Assembly: GCF_006149045.1 (NCBI RefSeq)
Contig: NZ_VBSN01000066.1
Location: forward strand, 186,001-250,000
From: Dyadobacter flavalbus
GTDB lineage: Bacteria; Bacteroidota; Bacteroidia; Cytophagales; Spirosomataceae
Length of the DNA: 64,000 nt
Direction: 5' to 3'
This document shows, piece by piece, positions 21,721 to 27,659 of this stretch. Numbering within the stretch: position 1 is the first letter of the stretch; each line of letters begins with the position of its first letter. A model generated the notes under the pieces. That model saw only the letters and a program-made list of their open reading frames with translations. It had not been told where the DNA came from and made no database searches. Both the position numbers and the translations under genes were made by a program.

Positions 21721-21736
21721 TTGATTTTCTTTGTAC

Positions 21737-23659
21737 ATGGATTATTTTAAAAAGCTTTCCGATCTGTTGAAAACAGAAAGGGAAGAAGACCGGCAATCTT
21801 ACCTCAGACTTACTGAAACGACTTCTGTTTCCGAAAGGCGCGCCAACGGACTCGCATGGTACCCGATCGCGATCAGAGGATCGGAAATGAGCCGAGGCGA
21901 TTATCTGACGGTGGAAGTGGAGCGTACAACGCATCAGGACATTTCGCATCAGCTTCGTTTTGGAATGCCGGCTGTGCTTTTTTCCAATCACGATGCCAAA
22001 AAGGACAGGCTGGAAGGAATTGTTTCACATCAAAGCGGTAACCGGCTGAAAATTACCTTGCGTACCGACGAACTTCCGGAATGGTCGCGTGACGGAAAGC
22101 TCGGGATCGACGTCCTTTTTGATGACAACAGCTATGATGAAATGCAGAATGCGCTTAAAGCTGCCGGCATTCTTGCAGAAAACGATAAAGAAGGACGCCT
22201 TGTGCAAATACTGACCGGTGAGAAATCGCCTGCATTTCAGTCCAAAATTCCTGAAATCCGCATTCCGCAACTGAATCCGTCGCAACTGGAAGCAGTTAAG
22301 AAAATTGTATCAGCCAACGAACTGGCCATTGTCCACGGCCCGCCCGGAACCGGAAAAACGACAACATTGGTGCAGGCCATAAAGGCATTGATCAGCCATG
22401 AGCACAAGCAGATTCTGGTTGTAGCGCCTAGTAATACAGCAGTGGATCTGTTGAGCGAAAAGCTTAGTGACGAGGGGCTTAACGTACTTCGGGTTGGAAA
22501 TCCGGTTCGGGTTTCAGAACGATTGATGTCTCTGACGCTGGACAGTAAAATGAATGCGCATAGCCGTATGAAGGACGTTAAAGCACTTAAAAAGCAGGCT
22601 AACGAATTCAAGAATATGGCGCACAAATACAAACGGAATTTTGGCAAGGCCGAGCGTGAACAGCGAAAAGCACTTTTTGATGAAGCGCATAAAATCATGA
22701 AGGAAGTCGGTACTATTGAACAATATGTAATTGATGACCTTATTTCCAAAGCGCAGGTAATTACCGCAACGCTGGTCGGGTCCAACCATTATACAGTCAG
22801 AAATCTGAAATTCGGAACCGTAGTAATCGATGAAGCCGGACAAGCTATTGAGCCTGCCTGCTGGATACCTGTTTTAAAAGCTGAAAAAGTAATCATGGCC
22901 GGTGATCATTTGCAATTGCCGCCAACGATCAAATCTGCCGAAGCTGCCAGAAACGGTCTGAGTACAACTTTACTGGAAAAAAATGTCGCGGCACATCCTG
23001 AATCCGTTGTGTTGCTGGAAGAACAATACCGTATGAACGAGATTATTATGGATTTTTCTTCCAAAGTGTTTTATGAAAACAGGCTTGTGGCGCATGCTTC
23101 AGTCGCACGCAGGCTACTTTTTCCGGAAGATTCGCCATTGGCATTTATTGATACCGCAGGTTGTGGATTTGATGAAAAAAAGGAAGGAACAAGTACGACA
23201 AATCCTGAGGAAGCAGCATTTCTGTTTAAACACCTTTCACAGCTTGTTTCTGAATTTGTTCAGACCCAGACGGTTTTGAATCAGGATAATTTAAAAAGTT
23301 TCCCGACTGTGGCAGTAATTTCTCCATACAAGGAACAGATTAATATTCTTAAAGAGCAGTTGCTGCATGCGGATACTTTGCAACCTTATTTGTCCAGCAT
23401 TTCAGTAAATACCATCGACAGTTTTCAGGGCCAGGAACGTGATATCGTTTATATCAGCATGACGAGGAGTAATCCGGAAGGCGAGATCGGGTTTTTAGCA
23501 GATGTCCGCCGAATGAATGTAGCCATGACGCGTGCAAGAAAAAAGCTTGTTGTGATTGGTGACAGCGCCACGCTTTCGCAATCGGTATTTTACCGGGACT
23601 TTATCGAATATGCCGAACGTTTCAATGCATACCAGAGTGCCTGGGAATTTGCAGATTAG
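21737..23659 (+). CDS. Upf1/SMBP2-like superfamily 1 helicase
   Basis: A 640-residue DNA/RNA helicase of the SF1B Upf1-like group (IGHMBP2/SMUBP-2 relatives). An N-terminal beta-barrel (about 30-130) precedes the motor: Walker A GPPGTGKTTTL (about 203), a helical insert rich in lysine and glutamate (about 270-330), Walker B VIDEAGQAIEPACW (about 365), motif III GDHLQLPPT, and the second domain with ISPYKEQI, NTIDSFQGQERDIVYISMTRSN and VAMTRARKKLVVIGD. The ATG at 21737 is used, two codons inside a TTG start. Its physiological role in bacteria is unclear. Confidence 0.9.
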   Translation: MDYFKKLSDLLKTEREEDRQSYLRLTETTSVSERRANGLAWYPIAIRGSEMSRGDYLTVEVERTTHQDISHQLRFGMPAVLFSNHDAKKDRLEGIVSHQSGNRLKITLRTDELPEWSRDGKLGIDVLFDDNSYDEMQNALKAAGILAENDKEGRLVQILTGEKSPAFQSKIPEIRIPQLNPSQLEAVKKIVSANELAIVHGPPGTGKTTTLVQAIKALISHEHKQILVVAPSNTAVDLLSEKLSDEGLNVLRVGNPVRVSERLMSLTLDSKMNAHSRMKDVKALKKQANEFKNMAHKYKRNFGKAEREQRKALFDEAHKIMKEVGTIEQYVIDDLISKAQVITATLVGSNHYTVRNLKFGTVVIDEAGQAIEPACWIPVLKAEKVIMAGDHLQLPPTIKSAEAARNGLSTTLLEKNVAAHPESVVLLEEQYRMNEIIMDFSSKVFYENRLVAHASVARRLLFPEDSPLAFIDTAGCGFDEKKEGTSTTNPEEAAFLFKHLSQLVSEFVQTQTVLNQDNLKSFPTVAVISPYKEQINILKEQLLHADTLQPYLSSISVNTIDSFQGQERDIVYISMTRSNPEGEIGFLADVRRMNVAMTRARKKLVVIGDSATLSQSVFYRDFIEYAERFNAYQSAWEFAD

Positions 23660-23664
23660 TTTTT

Positions 23665-24240
23665 GCCGCAGCGCGGCACCCTGTTTATAGCAATGGGTTG
23701 TTTTGAAAAATTCATCATGCAAGGAGGCTCCTGCGGAGCCGCCTGATTATGTGAGATGCGTATTTTCTACAAACAGAAGGCTCCGCCGGAGCCTTGCGTG
23801 ATGCCAATTTATACCTTTCTGCAAACAGGATGCTACTCCGTAGCAAGTTGAATTTTGCCGCGGAGCGGCATCCCGTTTATAGCCATGTGTTGTTTTGGGA
23901 AATTCATCATGCAAGGAGGCTCCTGCGGAGCCGCCTGATTATTTGAGAAGCACATTTTCTACAAGCAGCGGGCTCCGCCGGAGCCTTTCGCGATGCCAAT
24001 TTGTATCTTTCTGCAATCCGGGTGCTGCTCCGTAGCAAATTGAAACTTGCCGCAGCGCGGCACCCTGTTTATAGCCATGTGTTGTTTTGGGAAATTCATC
24101 ATGCAAGGAGGCTCCTGCGGAGCCGCCTGATTATTTGATATGCGTATTTTCTACAAACAGAGGGCTCCGCCGGAGCCTTTCGCGATGCCAATTTGTATCT
24201 TTCTATAAACTGGATGCCACTCCGTGGCGGAATCTATATC
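23665..24240. repeat. Three tandem 192-bp repeats, each with four GC-rich hairpins
   Basis: Units begin at 23665, 23857 and 24049 with exactly 192-bp spacing. Each holds a GCCGC/GCGGC hairpin, GGCTCC-TGC-GGAGCC, GGCTCC-GCC-GGAGCC and a final stem (GCTAC/GTAGC, GCTGC/GTAGC and GCCAC/GTGGC in units 1, 2 and 3). The last stem varies in a way that keeps pairing. The array fills the space between the convergent helicase and FAD-dehydrogenase genes and has no open frame of note. It may be a REP-like element or a structured 3' region; no transposase lies nearby. Confidence 0.9.
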
Positions 24241-24266: not shown

Positions 24267-27242
24267 CTAAATCATTGCTTCCCACAAAATTTCTGCCGGG
24301 TGCATGGCTTTTCTTCCAGTTCCGTCATGAATCTGATGGCGGCAGCTTGTTCCGGGCGCGGCAATAATCACTTCTTCAGGCTGCTGGCGAACGGCCGGGA
24401 AAAGTACCAGTTCCCCAATTTGCATGGAAATATCATAATGCTCTTTTTCGTACCCGAAAGATCCCGCCATTCCGCAGCATCCCGAAGGAATCAGCTGAAC
24501 CGTATAATTTTCCGGAAGTGAAAGCATTTTCTTTGTCGGAACCATACTTGAAATGGCTTTTTGCTGACAATGTCCATGCAGTTTGATAAGACGTTTTTCC
24601 TTGGTAAACCGGTCTTTTGAAATATGTTTCAGTTCAATTTCCCTTGCAATGAACTCATCAAACTGAAGTGCATTCTGTGCCAGTTTCTTGGCTTCTTCCA
24701 CCAGTTCGTCGCTGACAAGATCGGGATATTCATCGCGAAATGTCAGGATAGCAGACGGCTCGATGCCCACTAACGGTGTATCGTAGGAGATGATGTCTTT
24801 TAACAAACGGATATTTTCCTCCGCAATCTTTTTGGCATCTTTTAACAGCCCTTTGGAAAGCTGTGGCCGTCCGGATGGGCCGTGATCTGGAATAATCACT
24901 TCATAGCCCAGTTTTTCCAGCGCAAGAATGGATTTTTTCCCTATTTCAACATCATTATAATTGGTAAATTCATCACAGAACAGATAGACAAGGCGGGAGC
25001 CTGACTTTACGCTGTTGTTTTTTCTCTGTTCATACCACTTTTTCAACGTTGTACTATGCAGCAACGGCATCGTGCGTTCCGGGTGAAAACCAACCATGCG
25101 GTTTGCCATTTTTCGCAGCGGCGCATTTTTGAACACCATATTATATGCCCACGGAACATAACTGGCAATGCCGGTCATTTTTGAGAAATTACCGACCAGC
25201 CATGATCGCATCGGAACACCGTGAACATCATGATACTGCTGCAGAAATTCCATTTTCAGCTTGGCAACGTCTACATTGGAAGGACATTCTCCTTTGCAGC
25301 CTTTGCAGGCAAGGCACAAATCGTAAACTTCCTTGATTTCCTCATGGTCAAAACGGTTTTCTTTCGGAGAACGCGTCAGCATTTCGCGGAGGATATTGGC
25401 GCGTCCGCGGGTTGTGTCTTTTTCATTCCGCGTGGCCATAAAGCTCGGGCACATGGTTCCGCCGCTCATCTGCGTCTTGCGACAGTCGCCCGAACCGTTG
25501 CACTGCTCGGCATGCTGAAGAACATCCTGATCATGAAAACGGAAATACGTTTTGAACTCAGGCGTTTTCTGATCTGCTTCGTACCGCAGGAAAGTATCCA
25601 TCGGAGCAGTATCCACAATTTTGCCGGGATTGAAAATATTATTCGGGTCCCACGCTTTCTTGATTTCCTTGAACAGCCCGTAATTATGTTCACCAACCAT
25701 TTTCGGAATAAATTCTCCGCGCAACCGTCCGTCGCCGTGTTCGCCGGACAATGAACCGTCATATTTTTTAACCAGATCAGCAATTTCCTCTGCAATCATC
25801 CGGAACTGGCGGTGACCTTCGCTGGTCTTCAAATTTATAATCGGGCGCAAATGGATTTCACCCGTTCCGGCATGCGCATAATGAACGGCCGACATGCCAT
25901 GTTTTTTCAGGATCACATTGAAATCACGGATGTAGTCAGGCTGATCGTATACGTCCACAGCAGTATCTTCAATTACAGCTACTGCTTTATCATCGCCCGG
26001 AATGTTGGCCAGCAAGCCAAGACCGGCTTTGCGCAGCGACCAGATTTTCTTGGTGTCTTCACCAAAGAGCAGCGGATAATGAAAACCGATTCCTGCTTCC
26101 TGCAGTTCTTTTGTCATTTCTGCAGCAAGCGATTCCACTTCGTCCTTTGTTTCACGCGAAAGGTCAACAACCAGAATGGCAGGAAATTTCCCGTCCGGCT
26201 TGTTCTTGACAAAAAAGGCGTTCTTCTTCTGTTCCGCATTGGTTGTAGCACATTCCAGCACGTAATCGTCGATCAGTTCCACTGCGTGCGGCTGATATTT
26301 CAGTGTCAGGATTGTTGCCCTCAGTGCTTCGTCTATTGTATCGCAATGGATGCAAACAAGTCCCGGCGTCTTGGGCGGAAGCGGAACAAGGTTTAATTTT
26401 ATTTCTGTTAAAAAACAAAGTGTTCCTTCTGAACCGGCAATCAGGCTGCACATGTTGAAGGGCTTTACAGATTCCTTTTCGGCCAGATACGGTTCCGTAT
26501 TGAGCAGCATATCCAGTGCATAACCGGTATTTCTCCTTTCAATACTTGGCTTCGGAAAATTTTTCCTGATTTCGGCCTGGTTTTCAGGCGAGTTCAGAAT
26601 CTCGTTTGTTTTCAGGTATATTTTGTCAAGAAGCGTGGCGCTGCCGTTTTTCTGCTGCGCATGGCTTATCAGATTTTGAAAGTCCTTTCCTTTGATACTT
26701 TTAAACTCCGCTTCCGAACCGTCGGCCAGAACTGCTTTTACTTCCAGCGTATGTTCCCGGGCGCTTCCGTAAACAATCGAATTGGAGCCGCAGGAATTAT
26801 TGCCGACCATTCCGCCGATCATGGCGCGGTTGGCCGTTGAAGTTTCCGGGCCGAAATACAGGCCGTAAGGTTTGAGGGCCATGTTCAGTTCATCACGCAC
26901 AACGCCGGGCTGCACACGTACCCATTTTTCCTCTGCATTGATTTCCAGTATTTTGGTAAAAGTTCTGGAAACATCCACAACAATACCGCTACCAACAACC
27001 TGACCAGCAAGTGAAGTTCCGGCTGTACGCGGAATCAGCGAAATGCTGTTTGCCGTTGCGTAGGAAATCAGCGTCTTGATGTCTTTTATGCTTTTGGGCA
27101 TTGCTACCGCCAGCGGCATTTCGCGATAGGCAGAAGCATCGGTAGCGTAAAGGGTCCGCATGGTATTGTCGAAATACAGATCACCTTCAAGTTGTCTCGC
27201 AAGTAAGCTTAAATCAGAATGGGTTACAGACGGCAATGTCAT
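24267..27242 (-). CDS. FAD-binding and Fe-S domain dehydrogenase (YdiJ/GlcD-GlcF-like fusion)
   Basis: A 991-residue oxidoreductase, probably cytoplasmic or membrane-associated, oxidising a 2-hydroxyacid such as D-lactate or D-2-hydroxyglutarate. Residues 1-550 form the FAD_binding_4/FAD-oxidase part (IPRTAGTSLAGQVVGSG; GGMVGNNSCGSNSIVYGSAREH; YAHAGTGEIHLRP; SGEHGDGRLRGEFI). The C-terminal half is the iron-sulfur part with CNGSGDCRK, CLACKGCKGECPSNVD (about 647) and the CCG-type SGCCGMAGSFG (about 920). The length and order match E. coli YdiJ. The start at 27242 removes an upstream hydrophobic extension that begins at 27290. Monocistronic. Confidence 0.88.
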   Translation of the reverse strand: MTLPSVTHSDLSLLARQLEGDLYFDNTMRTLYATDASAYREMPLAVAMPKSIKDIKTLISYATANSISLIPRTAGTSLAGQVVGSGIVVDVSRTFTKILEINAEEKWVRVQPGVVRDELNMALKPYGLYFGPETSTANRAMIGGMVGNNSCGSNSIVYGSAREHTLEVKAVLADGSEAEFKSIKGKDFQNLISHAQQKNGSATLLDKIYLKTNEILNSPENQAEIRKNFPKPSIERRNTGYALDMLLNTEPYLAEKESVKPFNMCSLIAGSEGTLCFLTEIKLNLVPLPPKTPGLVCIHCDTIDEALRATILTLKYQPHAVELIDDYVLECATTNAEQKKNAFFVKNKPDGKFPAILVVDLSRETKDEVESLAAEMTKELQEAGIGFHYPLLFGEDTKKIWSLRKAGLGLLANIPGDDKAVAVIEDTAVDVYDQPDYIRDFNVILKKHGMSAVHYAHAGTGEIHLRPIINLKTSEGHRQFRMIAEEIADLVKKYDGSLSGEHGDGRLRGEFIPKMVGEHNYGLFKEIKKAWDPNNIFNPGKIVDTAPMDTFLRYEADQKTPEFKTYFRFHDQDVLQHAEQCNGSGDCRKTQMSGGTMCPSFMATRNEKDTTRGRANILREMLTRSPKENRFDHEEIKEVYDLCLACKGCKGECPSNVDVAKLKMEFLQQYHDVHGVPMRSWLVGNFSKMTGIASYVPWAYNMVFKNAPLRKMANRMVGFHPERTMPLLHSTTLKKWYEQRKNNSVKSGSRLVYLFCDEFTNYNDVEIGKKSILALEKLGYEVIIPDHGPSGRPQLSKGLLKDAKKIAEENIRLLKDIISYDTPLVGIEPSAILTFRDEYPDLVSDELVEEAKKLAQNALQFDEFIAREIELKHISKDRFTKEKRLIKLHGHCQQKAISSMVPTKKMLSLPENYTVQLIPSGCCGMAGSFGYEKEHYDISMQIGELVLFPAVRQQPEEVIIAAPGTSCRHQIHDGTGRKAMHPAEILWEAMI

Positions 27243-27659
27243 AAAAGTATTATACTGGAAAATAATGGCTGCAAAGTTACGCACAAGCAAGATGGTTTTC
27301 CAGCAAATATTTTCATAGGATATGATTCACCGTCAATCGGGTTGCACAGAGGTTTGATTATGTAACCGAACGGGTTTGTTTTGTATTTTTCAAATAGCAC
27401 TTTTGTGCTATAATCAGATATACTGAATGGTTGTAAAATATTGCGATTAAAGTGAACAAATTTGGGGTAATCGTATTGTATTATTCAAGCCATTTATATT
27501 ATTTTGTACGATCGCTAGTGTAAAACTTCTACTTTTTCGCCCTTTAATTCACTAAAAAGCTGTGTTTGTTTAATACAGATGTATTTTTTAAAATGAAAAA
27601 GGCGGAATGTTGAAATGATACAACAGCGATGCATTCAGACCTAATTAATTATATAACCT
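27243..27659. other. 417-base divergent intergenic region upstream of susC
   Basis: It lies between the FAD-dehydrogenase gene (minus) and susC (plus). It is AT-rich, with a hairpin listed separately. Near-matches to TAnnTTTG occur (TATTTTG about 27500, one base short), but no exact promoter for susC could be fixed. No coding frame or RNA gene was recognised. Confidence 0.6.
27394..27411. promoter_or_regulatory. Perfect inverted repeat in the susC upstream region
   Basis: ATAGCAC-TTTT-GTGCTAT, a 7-bp perfect stem with four-base loop, about 250 bases before the susC start and 150 before the dehydrogenase start on the other strand. It lacks a long T-tract, so an operator or a leader hairpin is as likely as a terminator. 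Confidence 0.35.

Follow-up and report, generated by a model that had tools for sequence, protein, structure and literature searches.

The repeat array at 23661-24236 of the stretch of Dyadobacter DNA analysed here (64 kb; the window) is probably a cluster of non-autonomous, REP/BIME-like modules that belong to a class 1 Y1 transposase (subclass 1.2 by motif) encoded at C1:973516-973974. To judge from the sequences compared, the pairing of a Y1 enzyme with a hairpin family of its own appears to recur across the Bacteroidota.

Organization of the array

The array is a 576-bp stretch of three copies with an exact period of 192 bp (starts at 23661, 23853 and 24045; spacing 192 and 192), the second and third being 88% identical to the first. 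Each unit carries four GC-rich hairpins with 3-nt loops, twelve in total, and those of unit 1 lie at 23664-23678, 23726-23740, 23777-23795 and 23831-23845. Stems are mostly 6 bp long, with 3 of the 12 reaching 7-9 bp. The original prediction had described the period, the number of hairpins and the position between convergent genes, all of which hold, the last from the open reading frames on both sides. It had also traced the last stem from GCTAC/GTAGC through GCTGC/GTAGC to GCCAC/GTGGC in successive units, and these changes do preserve the stem. The change of the first loop from AGC to GGA is likewise present, but the order by unit is AGC, GGA, AGC. The features are as follows.

21731..23659, + strand: upstream convergent gene, helicase-like ORF of 642 aa, named from its translation
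23661..23852, no strand: array unit 1, 192 bp, from repeat comparison
23853..24044, no strand: array unit 2, 192 bp, 88% identical to unit 1
24045..24236, no strand: array unit 3, 192 bp, 88% identical to unit 1
23664..23690, - strand: module 1a, hairpin TGCCGC-AGC-GCGGCA plus tag, reading CTATAAACAGGGT followed by GCCGC-GCT on the - strand; counterparts at 23856-23882 and 24048-24074
23726..23752, - strand: module 1b, hairpin GGCTCC-TGC-GGAGCC with the variant tag ACATAATCAGGCG (on the - strand) in the same register, lacking CTAY; counterparts at 23918 and 24110
23767..23795, + strand: module 1c, tag CTACAAACAGAAG, 13 nt ahead of hairpin GCTCC-GCC-GGAGC; counterparts from 23959 and 24151
23819..23845, + strand: module 1d, tag CTGCAAACAGGAT and hairpin TGCTAC-TCC-GTAGCA; counterpart in unit 2 (24023-24037) TGCTGC/GTAGCA, and in unit 3 (from 24203) CTATAAACTGGAT followed by GCCAC-TCC-GTGGC
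23819..23882, no strand: inverted pair over the border of units 1 and 2, CTGCAAACAGG-hairpin-spacer-hairpin-CCCGTTTATAG
24267..27290, - strand: downstream convergent gene, FAD-linked oxidase/Fe-S-like ORF of 1007 aa, named by reading the translation alone

A single unit thus holds modules of both orientations, and the inverted pair at the unit border is a BIME/REPIN-like composite that is also present in other arrays. Strict matches to CTAY, nine bases and a hairpin number seven in the 64-kb window, all of them inside the array. The variant tag ACATAATCAGG at 23740-23752 and its counterparts stands in the same 13-nt register, in place of CTAYAAACAGG, at one hairpin per unit. A CRISPR array, with repeats of 24-48 bp and unique spacers, was considered and rejected, since entire 192-bp units are 88% alike. 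A search for tRNA and tmRNA genes found none.

A genome-wide family of tagged hairpins

Queried with one unit, the 6.48-Mb genome to which the window belongs (G000) gave 124 matches at many sites. What they share, in one orientation or the other, is the tag CTAYAAACAG, then three bases and a short hairpin, rather than the 192-bp unit. The basic module is a single tagged hairpin, CTAY-N9-[5-bp stem, 3-nt loop], with the tag CTAYAAACAGGNN on either strand in the window array. The 192-bp period is local; other arrays have unit lengths of, for example, 68, about 160, about 186 and about 225 bp. Inverted pairs of the form CTAYAAACAG-hairpin-spacer-hairpin-CTGTTTRTAG are frequent, and a second, related tag, ATAATCAGG, is found at other hairpins of the arrays.

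The strict pattern CTRYAAACAGNNNGCTCCNNNGGAGC, which combines the tag with the GCTCC hairpin, has 64 copies in the genome against none for its reversed control, mostly in about 32 intergenic arrays; arrays were scored as having at least 2 tags and at least 2 hairpins with overlapping ORFs set aside, so that their intergenic status partly reflects this choice. Searching for the tag alone gives 208 occurrences, compared with 51 of the reversed control. On contig C1, which was read whole (arrays on other contigs were read in pieces), 27 of the 51 tags fall within the 0.7% of the DNA made up of the hairpins with 60-bp margins.

Among copies chosen by the tag alone, the 5-bp stem is paired in 91% of cells, as against 33-50% when it is slid by 1-2 bases. 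Stem covariation is two-way at pair 3 (T-A 85, C-G 76) and three-way at pair 4 (C-G 99, G-C 38, A-T 24). These counts, taken over related copies in several genomes, represent sequences rather than events. The compensatory change first noticed within the window therefore extends to copies elsewhere, which keep their stems paired. Nor is the family confined to one genome, as tag and stems are also present in other species. Of the findings that the original prediction named as weakening its idea, those accessible from sequence were thus not made.

The partner transposase gene

The original prediction noted that no transposase stands beside the array. This is true locally but misleading, as a matching gene with the same hairpins on its flanks lies elsewhere in the genome. 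Three PF01797 genes are present, one of which, the Y1 HUH transposase gene at C1:973516-973974 on another contig, has this tag and these hairpins on both sides. Its product (153 aa) matches Pfam PF01797 and scores above the cut-off of the NCBIfam IS200/IS605 model, and the nearest solved structures are IS200/IS605-type transposases. The motifs DHVH, WQ and YILNQEEHH are those given for subclass 1.2, so that by motif the enzyme would be an IS200-like class 1 transposase of Quentin subclass 1.2.

Orthologues of this gene (clade A) occur in 14 of 48 Dyadobacter genomes, one gene per genome and mostly at one locus. The tag or the same hairpins flank all 14 clade-A loci, while this tag is found at none of 16 other Y1 loci. 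Some genomes without a clade-A gene have kept 1-12 strict copies. The other two Y1 genes of the window genome, L032 (C1:584035) and L273 (C1:564051), carry a few CTAY-N9 hairpins, of other families. The exact patterns of three other hairpin families have no copies in the window genome.

A common spacing rule and its relation to Y1 clades

Since the clade-A loci are mostly orthologous and represent one line of descent, the rule was tested at other Y1 genes. CTAY lies 13 nt ahead of the hairpin foot at 18 of 18 other Dyadobacter Y1 loci in the set tested first (73 hits), at 11 of 14 loci from other genera (41 hits) and at 19 of 27 loci sampled phylum-wide (57 hits). The rest of the tag differs around these genes; CTAY and its spacing are constant. 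At most other spacings CTAY gives about one or two hits, and neither the reversed tag YATC nor GTRG, used as controls near Y1 genes, gave a peak at 13 nt. A scan of all 4-mers at all offsets over the 27 loci, made with no prior pattern, returned CTAC at 13 nt together with its overlapping context. Hairpins of at least 6 bp had left the other-genus case open (5/11 near the Y1 genes vs 1/11 far, p 0.15), and the CTAY-anchored scan with 5-bp stems settled it.

The distance between tags and stems tracks that between the Y1 proteins (Mantel r 0.59, p 1e-4, n 44). Four hairpin families were counted by exact patterns in 48 Dyadobacter genomes, with Y1 clades assigned solely from protein identity. High copy numbers of a family are found mainly in genomes that encode the corresponding Y1 clade. 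In these tests, which ignore phylogeny, each family is most strongly associated with that clade (1.1e-5 for A, 4.2e-11 for T, 1.2e-7 for G and 1.3e-6 for S); of the 12 non-matching pairs, three likewise fall below 0.05, namely A hairpins with clade T (0.001), G hairpins with clade T (0.005) and S hairpins with clade G (0.02). The motifs DH[VIL]H, WQ and Y---Q--HH are found together at 58 loci, and 15 further loci read DHTH or DHAH by tblastn, 14 of them with Y---Q--HH.

The CTAY-N9 rule is not universal among related Y1 genes. The element is absent beside 22 Y1 loci of the genus with the same Y---Q--HH motif (among L314-L357, e.g. L338, L341 and L352), these loci having been picked because they lack it. 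They appear to have other hairpins, for example with GCAC 21 nt before the foot in 13 of the 22. There is perhaps an even chance that class 1 IS200-like enzymes have given rise, independently of the class 2 RAYTs, to a phylum-wide REP-type system in Bacteroidota in which each CTAY-N9-hairpin family is matched to one clade.

Gene context and alternative explanations

The 32 arrays lie between convergent (11), same-strand (15) and divergent (6) genes. Convergent spacers are over-represented (11/32 arrays vs 73/481 spacers, p 0.011), and there are seven loose terminator-like matches where shuffles lead one to expect 1.3, as would suit an array that acts mainly as a bidirectional terminator or mRNA 3'-end block between convergent genes and is under selection as such. 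This is nevertheless unlikely, because 21 of the arrays have divergent or same-strand neighbours, because the stem is followed by the conserved tag (CTGTTTRTAG) and not by a U-run, and because such a role predicts neither the fixed 13-nt spacing of CTAY nor the tandem arrays nor the association with Y1 clades. The termination or boundary structure offered in the original prediction is left with a secondary role at most, and the context of the arrays fits tolerance in spacers, leaning to gene ends, better than a dedicated terminator.

A simple tandem duplication of local intergenic DNA, lacking any functional partner and with hairpins that are incidental, would account for the variation of unit length and sequence at orthologous sites, as slippage or unequal exchange would give. 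It is highly improbable, given that dozens of unrelated sites, and other species too, have the tag and stems with compensatory changes, that they match the flanks of the Y1 gene, and that pairing is preserved where duplication alone predicts its loss in most copies. The least probable reading is a structured RNA or small-RNA locus, for although the array folds strongly as ssDNA (z = -8.7, with 0 of 100 shuffles as good) and its stems covary, neither property separates DNA from RNA, both module orientations occur in one unit as in a DNA element, and an Rfam scan of the window gave no match, leaving the small RNA first proposed without support. The option favoured by the evidence is the REP-like element, whose pairing is kept and whose hairpins are shared with the transposase gene.

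Under this REP-like interpretation, the Y1 enzyme would bind the modules as single-stranded hairpins and cleave them beside the tag, the CT of CTAY being the probable site, and may in this way have spread them. The analogy is with E. coli TnpAREP, which cleaves at a CT adjoining its REP (PMC8266576) and so suggests this CT as a reasonable candidate. The local 192-bp tandem could have arisen by replication slippage or by unequal recombination between modules, and any influence that the arrays have on where transcripts of convergent genes end would be a by-product.

Relationship to known systems

Like canonical REP/BIME (REPIN) sequences and their RAYT/TnpAREP enzymes, the Dyadobacter modules are intergenic, multi-copy, short tagged hairpins, often arranged as inverted pairs or tandem clusters; a single-copy Y1 transposase gene is flanked by them, as in a REPtron, and different families go with different enzymes. 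Canonical REPs are defined by GTAG or GTGG 0-2 nt from a hairpin with a stem of 7-20 bp and by an enzyme with Y---NP (PMC6006769). In Dyadobacter, the tag is instead CTAY with nine bases before the hairpin, and GTRG at adjacent offsets (4-6) near Y1 genes gave nothing beyond one or two hits. The conserved core stem is 5 bp, short of a basal stem of at least 7 bp, and the enzyme has Y---Q--HH (YILNQEEHH) in place of the Y---NP of class 2 TnpAREP. The repeats thus seem REP/RAYT-like in their working, yet depart from canonical REPs in tag, stem and enzyme class.

The enzyme class is shared with IS200/IS605 elements. Unlike these, clade A is represented by one gene in each genome, mostly at the same locus, along with many gene-free copies, and its hairpins are inverted and repeated instead of forming one fixed left and one fixed right end. 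Several near-identical mobile units with the gene between fixed ends, as expected of an insertion sequence, were not found. A further counterpart is subclass 1.2 of Quentin et al. 2018, with the same DHVH, WQ and Y---Q--HH motifs, about 150 aa and the same phylum. In that survey no REP was reported for subclass 1.2, and its members were described as generally without typical IS200 terminal structures, whereas a linked hairpin family is now found at many of its loci. Modules with CTAY-N9 and a 5-bp stem would escape the search pattern of the survey, which required GTAG or GTGG at 0-2 nt from a stem of at least 7 bp. No earlier description of such repeats was found in the open-access literature searched.

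Subclass 1.2 therefore gains a defined candidate DNA partner, in a form (CTAY, N9 and a 5-bp hairpin) that can be searched for in any genome. The four pairings of enzyme and hairpin within one genus offer natural specificity tests for hairpin recognition by Y1 enzymes.

History of the arrays

Among the genomes compared, the closest match to the helicase-like gene is that of Dyadobacter sediminis (94% identical). Downstream of the same helicase at 18 other Dyadobacter loci, no comparable hairpin array was seen. In the nearest relative, G025, all 15 array regions examined have flanks that match array loci of the window genome (for one region, on one side only). The arrays in the collinear segment of C1 match likewise, and the 15 include no observed case of insertion into an empty site. 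Recent spreading thus lacks support from the comparison of sites. The content of shared sites differs: the window site has three units of 192 bp in G000 vs repeats of about 103 bp in G025, and C1:495282 has several copies in the former vs one tagged hairpin in the latter. Shared sites with differing content indicate that, across a nucleotide divergence of roughly 10%, the sites stay in place but their units turn over, making the arrays a system for the study of repeat persistence. At C26:60540-63540 (L205), G025 has about 3 kb of extra sequence relative to C1:495180-496070 of the window genome, which has a hairpin array only; the long open frames of this extra sequence read like a methyltransferase and a glycosyltransferase.
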